From: a virus
IMG/VR virus record: IMGVR_UViG_3300024298_000046
Coordinates: 1 to 21,990 of that record
DNA length: 21,990 nucleotides
Reading direction: 5' to 3' (one strand)
Shown here: piece by piece, positions 2,192-14,250 of the stretch
Layout of the letters: every line of letters starts with the position of its first letter
Numbering within the stretch: the first letter of the stretch is position 1
Program-made: the position numbers and the translations under genes
The notes under the pieces: generated by a model
What the model saw: only the letters and a program-made list of their open reading frames with translations
Database searches by the model: none
What the model was told of the DNA's origin: nothing

Positions 2192-5100
2192 TACTTACCG
2201 CCGGATGTTGATTGAATAAGACGCAATAGATCTTCCCGAGTATATTCGGTCGACTTCACCAAGTTGCCGTATTCTTCCATGGTTACGCCTCTTCCGCTGT
2301 GGGAGAAGGTTCCCCTGACGCCACGATCTTTGGTGTAGCGAGTGGGTGCCCCACGTCTGACTTGCAACTTGAATCCAGCCTGCTCAACGCGCAATAGTTG
2401 CTCGTAGTCCATCTTGGCCGGGTTCATCTCGAATGATGTCATTGGGTTTTGTGGGAGTTCCGGCCCATAAACCGGGCGATTCAAAACGTCTTCCATGCCC
2501 CTGATTTCCACGCGAGCGGTTCGAGCCGAACCTCCCTCAAGCATGATTCTGTTCAGTTCGGCAGTGGTCTTTGCAAACTGATCGCCGTAAGTTTCCATTC
2601 TCAACAACTGATCTTTGTCCACCACGTTGAACGTTCTGCCCTGATCTGGTGGATACTTGCGCGGTGGTTGCAATTGCTTTTGCTGTCTCTTGGTCCTGAA
2701 TCGAATGATTGGTTTGTCGGACTGCTCGAACTCTTCTTGCAATTCCTTTGATCGCTTTGATCGTGCCTCTGCTGCGGCATTCTCCTGCGCAATTCGCTCT
2801 GGTGATTTCTGACGAGAAGCAATCTCAATGTTTCGCTGACGAACTTCTGCCAATTTCTTTTGACGCTTTTTGTACTCTTTGGTTCCTGGAGTCAAATGGG
2901 GATTGTAACCAGTGTTGATTTCAGCGACGTAGCGTCCTTCATAATCAATTTTTTGACCAGTTGCAGGATCAAACGGGCCAGGGTTCTGCAGTGCCTCTTT
3001 CAAGCGCTCATCTACTTGCTGGAGTTTGGTTGGCTTTTGCTCCGGTGGGGTAACCGAAGGAGTGCGCGTCTTTAGTGTTTTGCGCGGCTTTTTGTCTGGG
3101 TCGCGGAAACTAGTGCGCTTTTCTTCAAAGCCCTTCATGTAATCGCGTTGCTGTAGCCACTTTTGGGTATTGATGTCCTGGCCGTAGATCGGCGCTCCAC
3201 CCTTGGTTCTGCCAACGATCGTCGGCTCACCAAGTGCCTCCCTGGTCTGTTCGATGAGCCTGCTCTTGTCGCTGGCAGTAGCGCCGCCGAGACTCGGAAC
3301 GACCTCGACTTCGCCGCCGGGAAGTTTGGTCTTTGATTGTTCCTCAATGAAGGTTATTTCTGGCTTTCTGCGAACCGTTGCATCGGGTGCAAAACGAACC
3401 GTTTGCGTATTCGCCACCCCGGTTGAAACTGTTTGTCCCGATGCCTCGTCGTAGAACGTATACGTCGCATCCGATTCTGCCTTTTTCCTGGCCCTTCGCT
3501 CCCCGCGAGCGGCTTGTGCTTCGGCCCTTATTTCTGCTTCCGACTTGTACGTGATCTTTTGTGCAGGTTTGCCGGTCTTGGGGTTGATGACAGGACGGCC
3601 GGTTGCGGGGTCGATTACGTTCTCAACCTTTACGACTTGTTTTTCCAGTTGTTTGCGAAGCGTCTTGAGTGACGCAGCAGACTGTTTTGTGCCAGGAGTT
3701 TTCGCCGCTGTTTGAATTCTCGCCGCCTCGGCAAGTTCTTCCGGCGTGAATTGCTTTTGGGCCGTTTCAATTCTCGGATTGTCGATGAACTCAATTTCCG
3801 GACTGGATGGTTTCTCCAGCGGATTGACGACCTTAGTCGACGAAGTTGTACTCTGCTTCTTCTTTTTTCTTTTTCCGACCACCTCGCTTGGGCCTTGCGC
3901 GCTTGGCTTCGGACTGGACGGGGCCGAGACTTGCTCGACGGGGGTCGGAGACGTCCTCGAAGGAATACTCGACTCCGTAACGGTCGATAAGTTCTGCGTC
4001 CGTAAGTTCGTCGAACTGCTTACTTTTGGGCTAGTGCCTTCAACCACCCCCTCTGGGGCAGGCCTGCCTGTTGCTGGAGCAACGTTGTTGTTATCGATAA
4101 ATGTAGTTTCCGCTTCCGCCTTCTTGGCCTTCTTCGGCTTTGATGCTTTTGCTGGCTTTGGTGCTGGCGCAGCCGTTGCGGGCTGAACGTTTGCAGTTGG
4201 TGCCGCAAGATTTTCAGGAGTTGCGGTTCGCTGCATTGGTGTTGGCGGAGTTGTTCCGGCAACATTCACCGGATTCTCAACGACGATCTCTGGGGCTTTG
4301 ACTGGGCTTGCCGTTGCCGGTGCTGGCTGAGGTGCAGGCGTCGGTGTTGACTTCCTGGTTGAAGTCCTACGCGAAGATGGTGCGCCCTTGATCTTTGGCT
4401 CTCGTGTTGCTGGACCAGTGACCGGAGTCCTTACCGGTTCTGGTGCGGCAACGGTTCGCTCGACAGAAGAAACAACTGGACGGGTTTCGTTTACCGCCAA
4501 ACGAGCGGCGCTTTCTGCCCTTCCTTGTCGATATGCTCCGATTGATCCGCCTGTAAAAATTTTGTCGGCAGCCGTGATTGCTCGTCCGGCAAGACCCTTT
4601 GCGCCAATTTTGCCAAGAGCCTTTGCCCCAAGACCAAGTGCGCCTTTGGTTCCAACGCGAACCAAACCAGCATCAAATGCACCATAGGCAAGTTCTCTTC
4701 CTACGCCAGCAACGTTCTTCAGGCCTTCGGTAACTTCGCCTTGTTTGAATGCCATGTATGCTTCATCGAGTTCGCGAGCGCCTTGTCGAATGACGCGCGC
4801 AACTGGAATTCCAGGTCCGATCAGGTCACCCAAAACTGGAATCTTTGTATCGGCCAACCAATTGATGGCAGCGCTTGGCTGATACGTAGAACCAAACTCG
4901 CCGGTAACGCGCTTGACATTGGCCCTGGACGTTGTGGTCGTTGTTGCCGGTGGAACGTATGATGGCGGACGATATCCCGCACCACGATAAACGTCACCGC
5001 GAGCAGATGGCGTATTGAGATTCGTTGCCTGTGGCGTTGTTTCGTTTTGCTGACCGATGCTTCCGGACTTCTGCGGAATGTTCTTGCGAATCTTCTGCCT

Positions 5101-5328: not shown

Positions 5329-7278
5329 TTAGATCCAGGAAGGACGCCACAATTTGGGCGGAGCCTTGAATGGCGACAGTCCGGGCATGTGTAGTTCCGC
5401 AAACCAGTGGGCCATGACCAGGTCTGTGCCGTTTTTCTTGTCGCGGGTCCAGGTGCTCATTTCGTCCACGAAAGCCAGGGTCTTCCAGTTCTCGCGCATG
5501 CTGGGCAGCCTGATGGCTCCGGATCGCCATAGTTGCGGAAGTAACGCCTCGACACCAAGGTCGTCATCAAGTTTGTTCCGGTTCGTCGTATGCGGAATGA
5601 TCATGACCTGTTGACGTGCCTGCCACTTGCGTACGAAGTCGTGAGCAAGAAGGAAGCGCTGGGCTGCGTTGATTTCCACGACCCAGTGGCTTATTGGATA
5701 GCCCATGTCCCAAGATCTATTTTGCCAATCCTCCATCAAACCAAAGTGGCTAGACGTCGCGGTATCCCAACCAAGCAGTTCTTCGGCCGTCAACTTGACT
5801 CGCTCCAAATCGACAAGGTACCTCAGGTTGGTCTTTGGTTGATACAGCCACCACTGTACGGCCCAGAACATGGTCGGGCTCGGGTCGATTGAGCAAATCG
5901 AAATGATCGGTGGCTCGAGGCTGTTTGGTATGTAACCGGGTCGACGATCCTGGTCGATGCATCCTGGATACAGAACGCCGTCTGGTCCTATGCCGCCAGT
6001 TGCCCAAACGCGTTCGATCAGGTAGTAGCCCTGTTGCACATCCTGTTGTTGGTAGACGGTGGCAAACTTCGTTGGCGAGTTGTGTCGAATGTAGGACAGA
6101 TCCTTCCAGGACAAACGGAAGGGCTCAAGGAGTGGTCCGTTCGGCCAGGCTGGGGCGGTGGTTTTCCTGGATTCCGGACCGGTGTCGAGTTCTTCGTAGT
6201 AGGCCCTATAGACGATGTGGTCGTACTTGTAACGCTTTACCGGCTCTTTGACTTCTTCAGTGGTCACATCGCTACCGTCGTAGTCATCCGGGTCTTCTTC
6301 GTATGTCACTTTCGACAAACAGTGTGCGTATAGATCCTGTGGTCCAAGTCTCTGGCCGATGACCGCCAACACGCCGCCTGGCTCCACACGGGCTTCTGCC
6401 ATCGAGTCCCAGCGCTCTATGAGTTTGTCCCTGGCCGAAGACTCCTTTGAGTTCTCTGGCGACGCCACGTCGTCAAACAAACACAGGTCGGCACGGTGTC
6501 CAATGAACTCGGATTCAATGCCGTACGCCGACACGGTTGGTTCTTTGTTGTCCAGTCCTCCGTCGCCGTACTGTTCGACGATGAACTCCTCGGCGCGCCA
6601 CAAAGCACCCACGTGGGTTGGCTTGAACCTTCCGTAGTCGAGGGATAAGCAGGCTTCTGCATCGATCGCCAATCCACGGCGGATCATTTCCGGATCGGGA
6701 CGAAGAGGCGAAGTTCGTTCCAGTGTCTCACGAATGCGGCGGCTGTACATCTTTGCCAGGGTCTGGGAGATTGATCCGATCATCACGCGGATTGCGCGAT
6801 TGCGCACGATGCACCATACTGCTACGTCGTGGAACAAAGTCGACTTGCCTGCACCAGGCGGGCAGTTCAAGACCAGAAACTCTTTGTCGTTTGACTCAAG
6901 TTTGGCGACGATCTTGTACGCCGCGTCAACCTGCCAAGCGCTCGGCACGCGACCCAGGTAGCGCATGCGGAAGTAGTCGAAGTCTTCCAGCGCCCGAGCA
7001 GAGTGTTTGGAAAGACGTGATGGCGGAACTACTGGTGGCAATTCCTTTGCCACAACCAGGTCTCGTTTCAGCGCATTGCCGCCGCTTGCCTTGCCGAACT
7101 CCAGGTTCTGTTTGTCAAGTTCTGCCGACGTAGCCTTGGCCTTTGCCACCCACTTGGTAGCCGAAGCGTATGAAATGCCGGCCATGCGGGCGGCTTCTTT
7201 CATGTTTATGCCGGATTGCATTGCCTGCCAAAACATGGCTCGATCTTCGGGCGAGATCGGACGCCTTCCTTTGGACAT
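5329..7278 (-). CDS. terL: Terminase large subunit with fused N-terminal HTH
   Basis: DNA-packaging motor ATPase/nuclease, 649 aa. An N-terminal helix-turn-helix (about residues 17-48, NMKEAARMAGISYASATKW) resembles the DNA-recognition part of small terminases. The ATPase has Walker A CPPGAGKST at 139-147, Walker B LCLFDD at 265-270 and a coupling motif near VIGQR at 306-310. The RNase H-like nuclease has acidic residues at D465 (SIDPSP), E535 (VVEIN) and D619 (GTDLVMAHW). All key residues are present, so it should be active. An in-frame TAG lies three codons upstream, so this ATG is the first possible. There is no Shine-Dalgarno within the usual distance; a TATAGT box ends ten bases upstream instead. 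No separate small terminase gene is visible. Confidence 0.96.
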   Translation of the reverse strand: MSKGRRPISPEDRAMFWQAMQSGINMKEAARMAGISYASATKWVAKAKATSAELDKQNLEFGKASGGNALKRDLVVAKELPPVVPPSRLSKHSARALEDFDYFRMRYLGRVPSAWQVDAAYKIVAKLESNDKEFLVLNCPPGAGKSTLFHDVAVWCIVRNRAIRVMIGSISQTLAKMYSRRIRETLERTSPLRPDPEMIRRGLAIDAEACLSLDYGRFKPTHVGALWRAEEFIVEQYGDGGLDNKEPTVSAYGIESEFIGHRADLCLFDDVASPENSKESSARDKLIERWDSMAEARVEPGGVLAVIGQRLGPQDLYAHCLSKVTYEEDPDDYDGSDVTTEEVKEPVKRYKYDHIVYRAYYEELDTGPESRKTTAPAWPNGPLLEPFRLSWKDLSYIRHNSPTKFATVYQQQDVQQGYYLIERVWATGGIGPDGVLYPGCIDQDRRPGYIPNSLEPPIISICSIDPSPTMFWAVQWWLYQPKTNLRYLVDLERVKLTAEELLGWDTATSSHFGLMEDWQNRSWDMGYPISHWVVEINAAQRFLLAHDFVRKWQARQQVMIIPHTTNRNKLDDDLGVEALLPQLWRSGAIRLPSMRENWKTLAFVDEMSTWTRDKKNGTDLVMAHWFAELHMPGLSPFKAPPKLWRPSWI

Positions 7279-7294
7279 GTGCTGCTATACTATA
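7279..7294 (-). promoter_or_regulatory. Possible leaderless-type promoter of terL
   Basis: On the minus strand TATAGT (7294-7289) matches the -10 consensus at five of six bases and ends ten bases before the terminase ATG, so a transcript would carry at most a few leader bases. No clear -35 is seen. A GGAGG lies about 21 bases before the ATG, too far for a normal ribosome site. Confidence 0.4.
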
Positions 7295-7361
7295 CACGTC
7301 CTCCGGCGGTGCGATCCGTGTTGGTTGTCCGCGGTTCGTTCTCCTTCCCGCCGGCGGACAC

Positions 7362-7391
7362 CTATCTCGGGTTTTTGGGCTTGCGTGCCAT
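7362..7391 (-). CDS. 9-codon mini-ORF repeating the start of the 311-aa gene
   Basis: The ATG overlaps the TAA of the 311-aa gene as TAATG, and the frame encodes MARKPKNPR followed by TAG. Its first eight residues equal the first eight of the 311-aa protein encoded just upstream. The two copies differ only at third codon positions, all synonymous (AAA/AAG, AAG/AAA, AAT/AAC, CCA/CCG). It may be the stump of a lost paralogue, a gene truncated by a nonsense change (the frame reopens for 24 codons after the TAG), or a functional short peptide. The sequence cannot decide among these. Confidence 0.45.
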   Translation of the reverse strand: MARKPKNPR

Positions 7392-8326
7392 TACTGGTCA
7401 AAATCTTCCGGGTCCATGTCAATGTCTGGCATGTTGCGTCGTGCGTTTGAAATGTACAGTTGGCGCTGCAGTTTCTTTGCTCGCTCAGCGGCTTTCTTGT
7501 TGGCTTCATAAGCCATTTTTTTCCTTGCATATTCACTGGTTTCGTTGCGCATATATTCGTCCATGGACTGCGAGAACTCCCTTTGTCCTCTCAAGAATTT
7601 GCCCCTTTCGCGAAGTGCTCGTTTTGCAAAACGAATTTCATCGGCATTCATTTCAGAACTAATCCCCTTGTACGCCGATTCGGCCGTATCCAAAAGCATT
7701 CTGTTTTCGCGACCTGGACTAAGCAGTGGATCGCCAAGGCGCTCAATATCCTCCGCGGCTTGATGACGCACCGGATTGTATCGTTGATACAAATCCATGT
7801 AGTCTTCGTCGTACGGCGCGCCTCTTTCAAGACCTTTTATTTTTTGCTCTAGGTGCTCATTGTAAAACCGAGCGTCCTCTGCGACGTCTTGTGCTTCTTG
7901 TAGCGCCAGAATCAGTTCTTTTTGTGATTTCATTACCGTACGGGTTGTCACTGGCTTTAGCAGTTTTGCATGAAATGCCGCATTTGCCGCGACCGTAGCG
8001 GCCTTCCTGGTTGCGTACTGACCGGGTGCCGACTGAAGCGCAGCGCTAATTGCACTTGGAGCAACGACGCCAGCACCATAAAGACCGATTTGCGTGTTTG
8101 CATAACGCGCAAAGGCGCCTGGTCCCTGTTGTGCTGCGGAAACTCCACCACCAGAAGCAATGTCAAGACCACGTTGCGTGGCACGAATTCCTGCACGAGT
8201 TTGCGGATTCAGCGTTGGGTTTCTATCTCCAGTGAGAAAGGTGTTCAATGACTTGGCGCCACCGCCAAGCCATCCGCCAACGGTCTTGGCAATGTCGTCG
8301 ATTGGATTCTTGGGTTTGCGTGCCAT
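7391..8326 (-). CDS. 311-aa hypothetical protein, structural or accessory
   Basis: The frame is open further upstream, but I place the start at the ATG overlapping the preceding stop (TAATG), giving MARKPKNPIDD. Residues 17-30 are Gly-rich; 55-120 are rich in Ala/Gly/Ser with modest hydrophobicity; 135-165 and 225-292 are strongly charged helices likely to form coiled coils; the C-terminus is acidic (DIDMDPEDFDQ). No enzymatic motif is seen. Its location just upstream of the terminase, with Ala-rich and coiled-coil parts, fits a virion-associated or scaffold-type protein, but I do not recognise the family. It is co-transcribed with the 98-aa gene before it. Confidence 0.8.
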   Translation of the reverse strand: MARKPKNPIDDIAKTVGGWLGGGAKSLNTFLTGDRNPTLNPQTRAGIRATQRGLDIASGGGVSAAQQGPGAFARYANTQIGLYGAGVVAPSAISAALQSAPGQYATRKAATVAANAAFHAKLLKPVTTRTVMKSQKELILALQEAQDVAEDARFYNEHLEQKIKGLERGAPYDEDYMDLYQRYNPVRHQAAEDIERLGDPLLSPGRENRMLLDTAESAYKGISSEMNADEIRFAKRALRERGKFLRGQREFSQSMDEYMRNETSEYARKKMAYEANKKAAERAKKLQRQLYISNARRNMPDIDMDPEDFDQ

Positions 8327-8856: not shown

Positions 8857-9117
8857 CTACCGCTTCCTGTCGGGGTGACCAGGAGGAATGTAGTCGGGTT
8901 CATGGCGGTCGTACCAGTACTCGCGCTCACGGATTCGATCCTCGATGAACTTCTGCATCCGCTCATTACTCGGAAACCTAAACGGAGCATTGATGATGTT
9001 CCATGCTCCTTTGGCTACGGTTTCCACAAGCCCGGCGTAGCCGCGCTTCAGCACCCTGTTGCTCTTTCTGTTGGACGCAATGGCTTTTTCAAAATCGTCG
9101 TATGGATCGTTTGGCAT
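8857..9117 (-). CDS. 86-aa hypothetical protein opening the late block
   Basis: The ATG has no Shine-Dalgarno, but TACTGT ends six bases upstream, matching a leaderless start. The product is highly charged, with a helical N-terminus (DPYDDFEKAIASNRKSNRVLKR), a short hydrophobic or aromatic centre (about 29-47) and an Arg/Tyr-rich C-terminal part (ERMQKFIEDRIREREYWYDRHEPDY). No family is recognised. It is the first gene after a strong terminator, so it probably begins a new transcription unit running towards terL. Confidence 0.65.
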   Translation of the reverse strand: MPNDPYDDFEKAIASNRKSNRVLKRGYAGLVETVAKGAWNIINAPFRFPSNERMQKFIEDRIREREYWYDRHEPDYIPPGHPDRKR

Positions 9118-9684: not shown

Positions 9685-9702
9685 GTCGGCGGGATTGCCG
9701 AC
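9685..9702. other. Leader hairpin after the promoter box
   Basis: GTCGGC and GCCGAC form a 6-bp stem with a six-base loop between the promoter box and the ribosome site of the 125-aa gene. A similar stem lies after the second box copy (14168-14181). Confidence 0.4.
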
Positions 9703-9707
9703 AACGA

Positions 9708-9731
9708 GATTATCCCCCACCCCGAAATCGG
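9708..9731 (-). promoter_or_regulatory. Promoter/operator box, copy 1
   Basis: 24 bases, 23 of them identical to 14190-14213. Minus strand: CCGATTTCGG (an inverted repeat, CCGA-TT-TCGG), then a G/T-rich spacer, then GGATAATC with a GATAAT -10-like hexamer. It lies 43 bases before the start of the 125-aa gene. A combined promoter and repressor-binding site is inferred from the conservation and the inverted repeat. Confidence 0.6.
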
Positions 9732-9809
9732 CTCCCGACAACGCGCGCACGCGCTGCGCAGCGCACCTGTGCGCCTGCGTGGTATTGCGCGCTGGCTTCG
9801 GTAGCGATT

Positions 9810-10057: not shown

Positions 10058-10750
10058 TCAGTCCCCATCGTCGCTGTCACCCTCGTCATCTGCGCCTGAT
10101 GCCTTACGGAGCCTGTCTACGGCAACCTTGTAGGCACTGGGCGTTTCTCTCTCCAGAAGTCCAGCACTCTCCTTGAGGGCGATGAGCGCACCGACGAACT
10201 CTTGTTCTGCTTCGGTGGCTTCGCACTTGGCAAAGAATGCTTCTGGGTTGTCGTCTTCTGCGATGCTGGTGTGGTTGGTGATGTATTCGTCACCAGCAAT
10301 GTGACGGCTAAAGGTCACCTTGCCACCTGCGTAGATGATCGACAAGCCCTTCGGAAAGTAAGCGAACAAGGCGTTGGGTGACAACTTGTGCGCTTCGTGA
10401 AGGCAGATGCTTGCTATGGGATTGGTCATCAGGGCCACTGCTTCCTTGGCATTGGAGAAACTGCCCAACAAGCGCAACTCCGAAGCAATGTTCGTAGCGC
10501 TGCTTGTGTCCAGGCCCAATGGATTGGATACCTCTGGTCCGTTGATGTCCTTGTCTGGGTCGCTTTGAATGACAAAGATGTATGAATCATCATCGGCGCT
10601 GGCATCTCGCTGGTTGATGATTGTCTTTGCCATCTGGCGCAAGAATGGCACTGATGCCATCTGTTCCCTGCTCTGCTCGGCACTCATACGCTGTACTGCT
10701 TCGCGTACTGCTGCCTCTGCTTCGCTGATAACTGCTTCTTCGTCGGTCAT
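10058..10750 (-). CDS. 230-aa protein of the MoxR/VWA module
   Basis: The ATG overlaps the VWA stop as ATGA, with GAGAGG upstream, so it is coupled to the VWA gene. The N-terminus is an acidic helix (EEAVISEAEAAVREAVQRM), the middle is a mixed alpha/beta domain (about residues 55-180) with hydrophobic strands such as YIFVIQSD and GLSIIYAGGKVTF, and the C-terminus is very acidic (ASGADDEGDSDDGD). No catalytic signature is seen and I do not recognise the family. Its fixed place behind an AAA+/VWA pair makes it a candidate substrate, adaptor or effector of that chaperone-like system; this is inference. Confidence 0.8.
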   Translation of the reverse strand: MTDEEAVISEAEAAVREAVQRMSAEQSREQMASVPFLRQMAKTIINQRDASADDDSYIFVIQSDPDKDINGPEVSNPLGLDTSSATNIASELRLLGSFSNAKEAVALMTNPIASICLHEAHKLSPNALFAYFPKGLSIIYAGGKVTFSRHIAGDEYITNHTSIAEDDNPEAFFAKCEATEAEQEFVGALIALKESAGLLERETPSAYKVAVDRLRKASGADDEGDSDDGD

Positions 10751-12147
10751 TTCCGTTGTCCTCTCTGGAGTTTGCGTAATAGCCGTACTGCGTCGTCTGG
10801 ACTGCTGACTCGCTTGATTCCCTTGGCTCTGTTGAAAGCCTTGGTCTCCCTGTGTAGGGCTTCATTGGACTTCGAGCCGTCACCCGTCACCTGACCATCT
10901 GAAACCCAGATGACTGGCGACTTGGAGTTGAGCCGAAGGTTGAAGTAAGCCCACTTGAGCGCTGGCAAGTCAACGCCGTTGTCGCCAGGGAACTCAGGCA
11001 AACCTCTCATTTGCCTGCCGTTCTTGGCGATTAGGTGTATGTTGCCATAGGTCTCGTCGTGTCCTTCGTCTCCTGCTGAGTAAGCCACGATGGACATACC
11101 AGCAGCAGCCTTCATAACCGACCTGATGTCATCGTCGTCAAGGCTCATTGAACCTGAGCAGTCAAAGACGACAACACCACCCAGCGCCCTTGTCTTGCGC
11201 TGGAAGATGCGCCTGTACGGGTCTGTGACCATACGGTGGAAAGCCTTGGGAAACCTGCCTTCGTTGGAAGGTATGAGTTTCCTGCCTGCCAAGCCCGTGT
11301 GTGGCAACACAAGTTCGTGCTTGGTCAGGTAAGGGCGCTTCCACCCTGCTGAACCATACTCGTCAATGGGAATGACGGTAAAGCCCTTGCCTTTGCGCTT
11401 GCCTTTGGGTGCCGTGTCCGTTGGCCTGCCTTCGCCTTCGCCTGGATTGGTGCCTGTGCCTGGCTTGTTGCCCGGCTTTGAGCCTGGCTTCTTGCGATGC
11501 CTACGAGACAGGTCGTCTGAGTAGCCATTGATTGTACGCGCCATATGACGGTACATATTGGTGGCATACTGACGCTTGCGCTTGTTGGTGTCGTGTAGCC
11601 CGTTGGCGTAATCCAAGTCAGCATCGATGAAGCCGTTGAGATACTCGGCAACTTCGCCAAGCGTCTCTGCCATCTCTGGATTCTTGACTCGCACGGCATC
11701 GACAATCGTGGCAAACACTGGAGTGTTGGCGAGTGCCAATGCGCTGGCAAAGGTGTCAGGAGTTGGAGCATCGCTGAGCAATGCGCTGATGTACGGCTTG
11801 GCGCTTACGGTTCCCTGGGTGGGATGCTCGCCAAAGACCTGCCTGTACATAGCGTTGCTGACCAGCCTGTTGGTGGCAGCAAATGCTGTCGCTGATACTC
11901 CCCACTTCTTGGAGTTCTTGGCAGTTGACGGGTACGACCACTTTGCCATCACGAGAGAGTAGCGACGCATACGCTCGAACTCCTCGCCTGGCAATGAAGT
12001 GGTTGTGTACTCGCCTGGCTTGCTGGTGTCTGACACATCGACATAAACGCCATCGATGCTGGTGACAAACCTGCCAACCTCTTTGAACCTGGTGCTCTTC
12101 TGTGTTGGGCGCTTGGTTAGTGCGCCACCGTAGAAGTTGGTAGACAT
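10747..12147 (-). CDS. VWA-domain protein (CobT/CoxE-like partner of MoxR ATPase)
   Basis: 466 aa from the ATG that overlaps the MoxR stop as TAATG; the frame is open 18 codons further, but that would overlap the ATPase gene. Residues 1-215 are a helical domain; 219-255 are a Lys/Gly/Pro-rich linker; 324-466 are a von Willebrand A domain with the MIDAS motif D329-C-S331-G-S333, a second metal-ligand region around DNGVD (389-393) and VSDG (415-418). VWA proteins encoded next to MoxR ATPases (CobS/CobT, NorQ/NorD, CbbQ/CbbO, RavA/ViaA) deliver or remodel partner proteins. This layout resembles CobT, but nothing else of cobalamin synthesis is here, so a cobaltochelatase label would be misleading. 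Confidence 0.88.
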   Translation of the reverse strand: MSTNFYGGALTKRPTQKSTRFKEVGRFVTSIDGVYVDVSDTSKPGEYTTTSLPGEEFERMRRYSLVMAKWSYPSTAKNSKKWGVSATAFAATNRLVSNAMYRQVFGEHPTQGTVSAKPYISALLSDAPTPDTFASALALANTPVFATIVDAVRVKNPEMAETLGEVAEYLNGFIDADLDYANGLHDTNKRKRQYATNMYRHMARTINGYSDDLSRRHRKKPGSKPGNKPGTGTNPGEGEGRPTDTAPKGKRKGKGFTVIPIDEYGSAGWKRPYLTKHELVLPHTGLAGRKLIPSNEGRFPKAFHRMVTDPYRRIFQRKTRALGGVVVFDCSGSMSLDDDDIRSVMKAAAGMSIVAYSAGDEGHDETYGNIHLIAKNGRQMRGLPEFPGDNGVDLPALKWAYFNLRLNSKSPVIWVSDGQVTGDGSKSNEALHRETKAFNRAKGIKRVSSPDDAVRLLRKLQRGQRK

Positions 12148-12871: not shown

Positions 12872-13663
12872 CTATTTCTCCTCTGGTGTTGTTGTTTCCC
12901 CATCGTCGGATGACGACGAGGCATCTTTCGCCAATGCGGCGAATAGTTCTGGGTCCCTGTCACGCATCATCATCGGCAGGTACAAAGCAGCGTAGAGCAG
13001 GTAGGGCACTTCGCCGTGCTCTTCCCTGAGTTCCAACGCTTGCTTCTCTATGCCCTTGTAGTTCTTGCCAGTGAACTCCTTGACCTTCATCATCTTGGTC
13101 TCAAGGATTTCTCCCGTGTCTTTGGCCCTGATTCTGAACATCATTCGGTTGGCAAGAATGCTGGCAATGATGACAATGTCTTGCTTGTCCTCTGCTTCGC
13201 TGGGCTTGACGCCGTCTTTCTCGGCAGTCTTGCTTGCCCACGCTTCGGTTCTGATCATCAACCCTGCGAGGTTGGGCAGTTGGTCGTGCATACGAATCAT
13301 CTGGGCACCGTTGGACAACAGTTCCTTGATGTCTCCTGGACCATTTGGCTCTGCTTCGTAGGCGCAGTGAACCTGTAGGCAGGCATTGGCTGAGCCATTG
13401 GAAGCATCGACAACACCCACATTGGGGTTGGTGTCTGGGCCGTGTTCTTGCTTGAACTCGGCAACTTCCTCTGGTGAACCCTGGAACACTTTGTGCTTGA
13501 CCCAAAAGTCAAACACTGCAGTCATTGGCGCACCGTTCCAGATTGATTCTTCGCCTTCGGTCAAAGCCCTTTCGGTGCTTAGCGTTGATTCTTCTATGAG
13601 TCTGCTGCCTGCGTCGTCGACTACATCGCGCAACGCATTGAGCACTTGCTCTTCTTCGGTCAT
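12872..13663 (-). CDS. 263-aa hypothetical protein of the MoxR/VWA module
   Basis: GGGAG lies eight to nine bases before the ATG, and the gene ends just before the ATPase start. An acidic N-terminus (1-40) is followed by a mixed domain with a cluster of Asn/Gly/Cys residues (about 83-102, SNGSANACLQVHC), helical segments, a strand-like RMMFRIRAKDTGEILETKMMKVKEF (about 172-196), and a Ser/Asp/Glu/Thr-rich tail. No family is recognised. The acidic tail resembles that of the 230-aa protein on the other side of the ATPase/VWA pair. It may be the target or a regulatory subunit; inference from position only. Confidence 0.8.
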   Translation of the reverse strand: MTEEEQVLNALRDVVDDAGSRLIEESTLSTERALTEGEESIWNGAPMTAVFDFWVKHKVFQGSPEEVAEFKQEHGPDTNPNVGVVDASNGSANACLQVHCAYEAEPNGPGDIKELLSNGAQMIRMHDQLPNLAGLMIRTEAWASKTAEKDGVKPSEAEDKQDIVIIASILANRMMFRIRAKDTGEILETKMMKVKEFTGKNYKGIEKQALELREEHGEVPYLLYAALYLPMMMRDRDPELFAALAKDASSSSDDGETTTPEEK

Positions 13664-13786
13664 TGCTGTTCTCCCTGTGTGAGTGGTTGTTGTTGTGGCA
13701 GACTTACCGTGCTTTGGCCGCTGGTCTGCCAGCAGACGGATACTTCAGGCGCACGACTGCCTGCCCCGTTAGGGGACCTGGGGGGA
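13664..13786 (-). promoter_or_regulatory. Leader region with mutually exclusive hairpins
   Basis: In the minus-strand RNA, GGCAGAC (13730-13724) can pair with GTCTGC just upstream (13737-13732, two-base loop) or with GTCTGCC downstream (13703-13697). A CCCC/GGGG stem (13775-13764) lies earlier. An unstructured ACAACAACAACC tract and the ribosome site follow. Alternative pairings like this can act as a switch, but short GC-rich repeats also arise by chance. Confidence 0.3.
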
Positions 13787-14137
13787 TTAGTGGCTTTCGA
13801 CCATTGACATCGAGTCGGTCTTGGCAACCATTTCGGTGTACCACCTGTACTCGCTGATGTAGTCGTTGCGCAACACGCACCAGTATTCGTAGGACACTTC
13901 CACGCCCATTGCCGCAATGACACGCCAGATGTAAGCGTGGCTGAGGCTTGTGTCGGTGACCATCTCGATGAACAGGGGCATATTGGCTTCGCCAACAGTC
14001 TGCTCAATCTTCTGACGGATTGTGTTGATGCGCCCACGACCATTGGTCCTGTGCTTCTGAGCCACTGACTTGATTGCGTCGGGCAGGCTCATCTTCCCGA
14101 GCGCAGGTTTATTGCGCTTCATTGATTGCTTGGTCAT
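13787..14137 (-). CDS. 116-aa hypothetical protein, first gene of the accessory module
   Basis: The start is supported by GGGAG twelve bases before the ATG, in an initiation region nearly identical to that of the 263-aa gene. It is the first gene after promoter box copy 2. The N-terminus is basic (TKQSMKRNKPALGK) and the rest is predicted helical, with SLSHAYIWRVIAAMGVEVSYEYW near the middle, which could form a small helix-turn-helix, though no standard motif is clear. If it binds DNA it could be the regulator of the twin boxes; that is speculation. I do not recognise the family. Confidence 0.75.
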   Translation of the reverse strand: MTKQSMKRNKPALGKMSLPDAIKSVAQKHRTNGRGRINTIRQKIEQTVGEANMPLFIEMVTDTSLSHAYIWRVIAAMGVEVSYEYWCVLRNDYISEYRWYTEMVAKTDSMSMVESH

Positions 14138-14167
14138 TGCTGTGTTCTCCCTGTGGGTAGTTGCGTA

Positions 14168-14181: not shown

Positions 14182-14189
14182 CACGACGG

Positions 14190-14213
14190 GATTATCCACC
14201 ACCCCGAAATCGG
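14190..14213 (-). promoter_or_regulatory. Promoter/operator box, copy 2
   Basis: One mismatch from 9708-9731. Here the inverted repeat extends to CCCGA-TT-TCGGG and is followed by the GATAAT hexamer. It lies 52 bases before the 116-aa gene and should drive the MoxR/VWA operon. A CG-alternating stretch (CACGCGCG) flanks both copies. Confidence 0.6.
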
Positions 14214-14250
14214 GTCGGGAACACGCGCGTGCCTACGGTAGGGAGACTAT

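Follow-up and report, generated by a model that had tools for sequence, protein, structure and literature searches.

Why do two neighboring reading frames in front of the terminase large-subunit gene (terL) of a phage open with the same eight residues, MARKPKNP, when the second of them stops after nine codons? The window, that is, the whole stretch of DNA analyzed, is a 21,990-base virus contig from IMG/VR. It carries a WhiB gene (15514-15188, E 9.8e-20), which suggests an actinobacterial host; there is no host record, since terL has no relative in genome_contigs. In the phage records terL matched 1492 records, but no match reached 80% of the query; the best covered 65%, at 27% identity. The features that matter here are the following.

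8857-9117, minus strand: 86-aa gene, the other flank of the mosaic segment described below, 82% identical to the copy in the related contig L087
8690-8857, minus strand: conserved structured non-coding block of about 165 nt, flank of the mosaic segment
8326-8622, minus strand: 98-aa basic ORF, first gene after the structured block and part of the cassette that stands in place of the single gene of L087
8326-7391, minus strand: 311-aa gene, with a complete N-terminal module (MARKPKNPIDDIAKTVGGWLGG) and a predicted-helical remainder
7391-7362, minus strand: mini-ORF MARKPKNPR*, probable remnant head of a module gene, head-profile score 15.0 bits
about 7279-7361, minus strand: inverted-repeat element immediately ahead of the terL start codon, with arms that covary across 15 aligned copies
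5329-7278, minus strand: terL (phrog_38, E 2.7e-59)

Both frames begin in a TAATG junction on the minus strand (8328-8324 and 7393-7389), in which the ATG overlaps the stop of the preceding gene and opens MARKPKNP. The mini-ORF reads ATG GCA CGC AAG CCC AAA AAC CCG AGA TAG. Over the eight codons that it has in common with the 311-aa gene there are four differences (AAA/AAG, AAG/AAA, AAT/AAC and CCA/CCG, the 311-aa gene given first), and all four are silent third-position transitions. The duplicated start with only silent differences, pointed out in a sequence-only reading of this DNA, is thus real. The similarity covers 27 nt at 89% identity and stops after codon 8 (repeat family D11), and the two copies are 935 nt apart. 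A 25-nt IUPAC pattern of the head occurs twice in the window, with 0 occurrences expected from 100 shuffles, and had 0 matches in 163 fetched loci other than cuts of the window.

Could two basic gene starts have come to resemble each other by chance? A looser coding pattern, MAR(K/R)PKNP, matches only 11 stretches of the whole viral collection, which makes a second copy by chance at a distance of 935 nt very improbable. Three of these stretches are starts of genes of the module family introduced below (L095, L096 and L101), and six begin ORFs of 81-317 aa that have other sequences (L097, L098, L099, and L100, L103 and L104, which have one common sequence). Judged from these starts, the MARKPKNP peptide is not unique to the module family. 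The last two (L102 and L105, one sequence in two contigs) are an out-of-frame nine-codon ORF, MARKPKNPL*, at a gene end, which is a product of chance. Such an ORF in one other phage pair and the unrelated ORFs with the same head are what speaks for chance in the window; the rarity of the pattern and the placement of both copies at TAATG junctions speak against it. We give a chance origin hardly any credence, and rejected it on pattern rarity and the shuffles, with L102/L105 and the unrelated ORFs as the caveat.

The eight residues are the head of an N-terminal module of about 22 residues, MARK-KNPIxDIxxTVGGWLGG, which opens the gene before terL in part of the loci collected through terL (the best 80 of 249 related stretches, L003-L082) and in loci added through the 311-aa family. 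A head profile made from the first 26 residues of 17 proteins, the 311-aa protein of the window among them, detects the module in the window and 19 further contigs, and in 10 of the 80 terL loci (best 80 of 249). Most of the 19 contigs contributed to the profile, so the module scores high in them by construction, and several are near-identical pairs (L015/L085, L070/L090). A gene of L018 that starts MARKPKG is missed by the profile. The 311-aa gene carries the whole module (58.1 bits). The mini-ORF scores 15.0 bits, with an i-Evalue of 0.045 over 53,106 stop-to-stop stretches, against a profile made partly from the neighboring 311-aa gene. Because it has just the first eight residues of the module, we call it a remnant and not a family member. 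Its position is that of the family, with a stop that abuts the element before terL as that of the L087 gene does.

The 311-aa protein itself has no Pfam match (E 0.01) and no PHROG match; tblastn against 50,697 phage records gave 0 matches at E 10, and as a single query in viral_contigs it had no relatives. Its AlphaFold model is of low confidence (mean pLDDT 55.2) and a second structure model is also poor (mean pLDDT 48.4). One fold search returned two viral proteins below E 0.001, from which we draw no function.

What may have stood in the slot before terL is suggested by L087. There, a full 206-aa module gene (3001-3621), starting MARRPKNPIDDI, ends at the same edge of the element: its TAA is directly followed by GTGTCCGCCGGCG, the start of the element that reaches terL, and in the window the TAG of the mini-ORF is directly followed by the same GTGTCCGCCGGCG. 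The flanks agree as well. The terL of L087 is 89.2% identical to that of the window, second to L003 (90.8%), its 86-aa gene is the best match to that of the window, and its structured block is 86% identical. Between these flanks L087 has one gene; in the window this interval is taken up by the 98-aa ORF, the 311-aa gene and the mini-ORF. The 98-aa protein has no relative in viral_contigs. Full-length relatives of the 311-aa gene occur in L013, L083 and L117 (46-49% identity) and in L015/L085 (38%), with weaker partial matches in L010 and L017. The terL genes of contigs with such relatives are 76-77% identical to that of the window where compared (for L083 over 316 residues only, and with no separate figure used for L085). 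The element was found at E 0.05 or better in 0 of these seven loci, and in L013, L015, L083 and L117 the 311-type gene runs straight into terL by TAAGTG. Since the flanks match L087 while the 311-aa relatives lie with a distant terL and without the element, the window is a mosaic with the mini-ORF at its seam. A recombination hot spot at gene starts, one of the earlier proposals, would fit this picture.

The mini-ORF is probably the remnant of a second module gene at this mosaic junction. In an ancestor, as in L087, a module gene would have lain between the structured block and the element upstream of terL. The 98-aa and 311-aa genes would then have arrived by recombination; relatives of the 311-aa gene occur in a lineage whose terL is more distant. 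A deletion or an imprecise crossover would have removed the body of the module gene already present, so that only its first eight codons were left, joined to a stop at the element edge. The silent differences would have arisen while each head still began a full-length gene. Selection at the protein level, which had been read from these differences, would hence have acted before the truncation, and the pattern says nothing of selection on the nine codons now. The remnant may still be translated via termination-reinitiation at TAATG, and probably has no function of its own. The idea of a recently truncated paralogue stands as far as a gene remnant is concerned, but not as a simple recent nonsense mutation. 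A point nonsense mutation or frameshift was rejected because the conserved element, and not the remains of a gene, follows the TAG. The homology to the module rests on eight codons, and the ninth codon and the TAG match no tail. As MARKPKNP opens unrelated phage ORFs (six of the 11 pattern matches), the lost gene could have been another basic-headed gene.

Adjacent module genes do exist in relatives. L015/L085 have a 243-aa and then a 302-aa module gene, the head of the first with an i-Evalue of 0.003. L114 has a 190-aa gene, then TAATG MARRPKNPINDI, at which a second gene starts MARRPKNP, and then TAATG into terL. Its first gene and that of L015 are related (BLASTP E 6.6e-11, 63% over 38 residues), and the head of this gene alone scores 10.7 bits (E 1.0) with the head profile; the ORF preceding the module gene of L070/L090 scores 10.1 bits (E 1.5). 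From L015/L085 and L114 it follows that a TAATG-started second module gene behind another is a real arrangement. The expectation that relatives would show a full-length second gene was thus borne out in part, by the module gene of L087 at this very edge and by the adjacent genes of L015/L085 and L114; the immediate parent, with a 311-type gene, a full module gene and then the element, was not found among the relatives.

Alternatively, the 311-aa gene could have placed a 27-nt duplication of its own start downstream, which then drifted. Both heads are in the same record, and they share the AGT before the ATG as well as the codons GCA CGC and CCC. We simulated drift conditioned on four differences, with transition biases of 1 to 8. 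The all-silent outcome arose in 0.6-1.5% of cases when the mini-ORF copy drifted freely and the 311-aa gene was constrained, and in 0.1-0.2% when both were free; the former, a probability of 0.006-0.015 for four of four silent, comes from only 24 nt and a simple model. Furthermore, over the 24 sites the mini-ORF is as far from the 311-aa head (4 differences) as from the head of L071, in another phage (4), and the 311-aa head is closer to L071 (2). As the mini-ORF head is no nearer to the 311-aa gene than L071 is, a recent copy of the gene's own start is unlikely, and we think such a self-duplication improbable overall.

The nine codons could also encode a working basic peptide or a translational bridge under selection. 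The TAATG overlap permits reinitiation, and L005 has a tiny basic ORF of seven codons, MAAKKRR*, at the same edge of the terL-upstream element (5896-5919, two bases past the stop of the preceding gene), so that short ORFs at this place could be tolerated or useful. But terL starts 112 nt past the 311-aa stop and 83 nt past that of the mini-ORF, distances too great for direct coupling. The two tiny ORFs, in the window and in L005, have different sequences, the slot of L087 is occupied by a full gene, and neither the pattern search of the viral collection nor the 163 loci yielded a relative with the same nine codons. No positive evidence speaks for the working peptide that had been proposed, and we consider it quite unlikely.

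An artefact, either a chimeric join just before the element or a wrong base at the TAG, is conceivable in a contig from a metagenome. We judge it very unlikely overall. The sequence after the TAG is an element homologous to those of L087, L004, L005 and others, which speaks against a wrong base more than against a chimeric join just before the element. A sequencing error at the TAG, which had been raised earlier, would also explain little: the element follows directly, and a longer module gene could not be opened by changing a base.

A gene remnant at a recombination seam is an ordinary kind of event, here in an undescribed family, and the mini-ORF itself is ordinary phage-genome debris. It matters as a lead to this head-sharing gene family and to two structured non-coding elements. 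The family, as its alignments indicate, consists of pre-terminase genes that begin with a common N-terminal head and diverge in their C-terminal parts. Among seven proteins (L070, L071, L080, L081, L093, L094 and L087), all 21 pairs are 75-99% identical over residues 1-100. After residue 110, all 10 pairs without L087 or L094 match above the shuffled maximum (30 shuffles), whereas only 1 of the 11 pairs with either of them does so (L070-L087, 41 vs 35), and one more ties. The tails of L020, L079 and L114 are of a third kind, and the 311-type tail (window, L013, L083, L117 and L015) is of a fourth.

Three module-protein tails, in L114 (1345-2316), L020 (4371-5342) and L079 (525-1526), contain HEFHH/HEFQH...G..H, which is like a metallopeptidase site; by the HExxHxxGxxH motif and sub-cut-off Pfam matches these tails may be metallopeptidases. 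The sub-cut-off matches of the L114 tail, checked on L114 only, were to Peptidase_M10 (E 0.035) and Reprolysin_4 (E 0.067). Tails of the HGS type may resemble ADP-ribosyltransferases, a resemblance for which the searches gave no support. A PDB sequence search with A6 returned C alpha-dehydrogenase at E 0.014 and a second match at E 1.2, both of which we judged to be chance; the same search with L114 gave no match.

An N-terminal tag carried by different cargo proteins is known from the internal proteins of T4, with their capsid targeting sequences; for a family known to us here only as sequence, this is no more than a works-like lead. The mini-ORF might, as we tentatively suggest, be a scar left in an actinophage cassette locus that changes fast. 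In such a locus a module of about 22-100 residues would head interchangeable C-terminal domains (helical, metallopeptidase-like, HGS-motif and others), perhaps as a virion-loading tag for delivery to the host, and recombination at the common heads would swap domains and leave truncated heads behind. If the head were a packaging or delivery tag, this would be directly testable, and it could carry chosen cargo in laboratory phages.

Comparable architectures have been described. The MuF polymorphic toxins of temperate phages have a conserved N-terminal region and differing C-terminal domains, and are encoded in the packaging module near portal or terminase genes (PMC5576092). The module family is like them in its conserved N-terminus, its differing C-terminal parts and its place beside packaging genes (PMC5576092), and the seven-protein comparison shows the same combination of a conserved N-terminus with unrelated C-terminal domains. 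It differs in that the module is short and is unrelated to MuF by these searches, which showed no toxin domain. Pfam gave no MuF match (PF04233/PF06152) in the 311-aa protein (E 0.01) or among 10 module proteins (E 0.1). MuF toxins have toxic activity with cognate immunity; the module family is known here from sequence alone. Within the literature searched, in the portions available, the module family of uncultured actinophages is undescribed.

The structured block at one flank is 80-93% identical in other phages of the group. It was found in 55 of 116 loci at E 1e-3 (many of them from the same contigs) and in 27 of the 80 terL loci (best 80 of 249), and its exact core is present once in each of 52 viral contigs. 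Across 24 aligned copies the paired cells make up 99.2%, against 92.6% in shuffles, and nine of 36 pairs change on both sides, a number reached in 0 of 500 shuffles; the measure "further pair types" was as high in 167 of 500. Compensatory changes occur solely in the 3' domain (helices 4-6); helices 1-3 have none. The block had no Rfam match up to E 10 and no match in the 50,697 phage records. It is possibly a new structured RNA, as this covariation suggests.

The element before terL has arms of about 12 bp spanning 62 nt and ends in a TATAGTATAGCA stretch next to the terL ATG that is promoter-like by eye. In 15 aligned copies, 93.8% of cells are paired, against 76.9% in shuffles, a figure inflated because the copies were chosen for a visible inverted repeat; 12 of 15 pairs have changes on both sides (0 of 500 shuffles as high), and "further pair types" is no different from shuffles (301/500). 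At E 0.05 a model of the element gives 53 matches in 52 of 89 loci, one locus being matched on both strands; near-duplicates or training sequences account for many of these, and eight lie at the weak end (E 0.025). The copy of the window, a training sequence, scores 60.8 bits. The element lies before terL or, as in L070, L071, L080 and L094, ahead of the gene that opens the row. Folded singly as RNA, the window copy gives a z of -2.4, and Rfam 15 gave no match. The element is a covarying structured non-coding one that may act as RNA or as DNA. In cluster K mycobacteriophages, start-associated sequences (SAS) and extended ones (ESAS) precede some start codons, and the ESAS are 17-bp imperfect repeats with a 4-13 bp spacer beside the 13-bp SAS (PMC3203893). 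Both they and the element are conserved sequences with inverted repeats just upstream of actinophage start codons; compared with that description, the element differs in its arm length and span, in arms that change together yet stay complementary and in having no SAS (PMC3203893). Even with 2 mismatches allowed, the 13-bp SAS, GGGATAGGAGCCC, matched nowhere in the window.

Other repeats occur elsewhere in the window. A 47-nt repeat at 9701-9747 and 14183-14229 (83% identical) is located close to gene starts and has, on the minus strand, the core GGATAATC; among 116 loci it was found otherwise only in L003. Similar gene-start pairs with common ribosome-binding regions lie at 13639-13674, 13658-13689, 14132-14163 and 10726-10761 (repeat families D4 and D7), and the proteins starting MTDEEAVI and MTEEEQVL may be paralogues.
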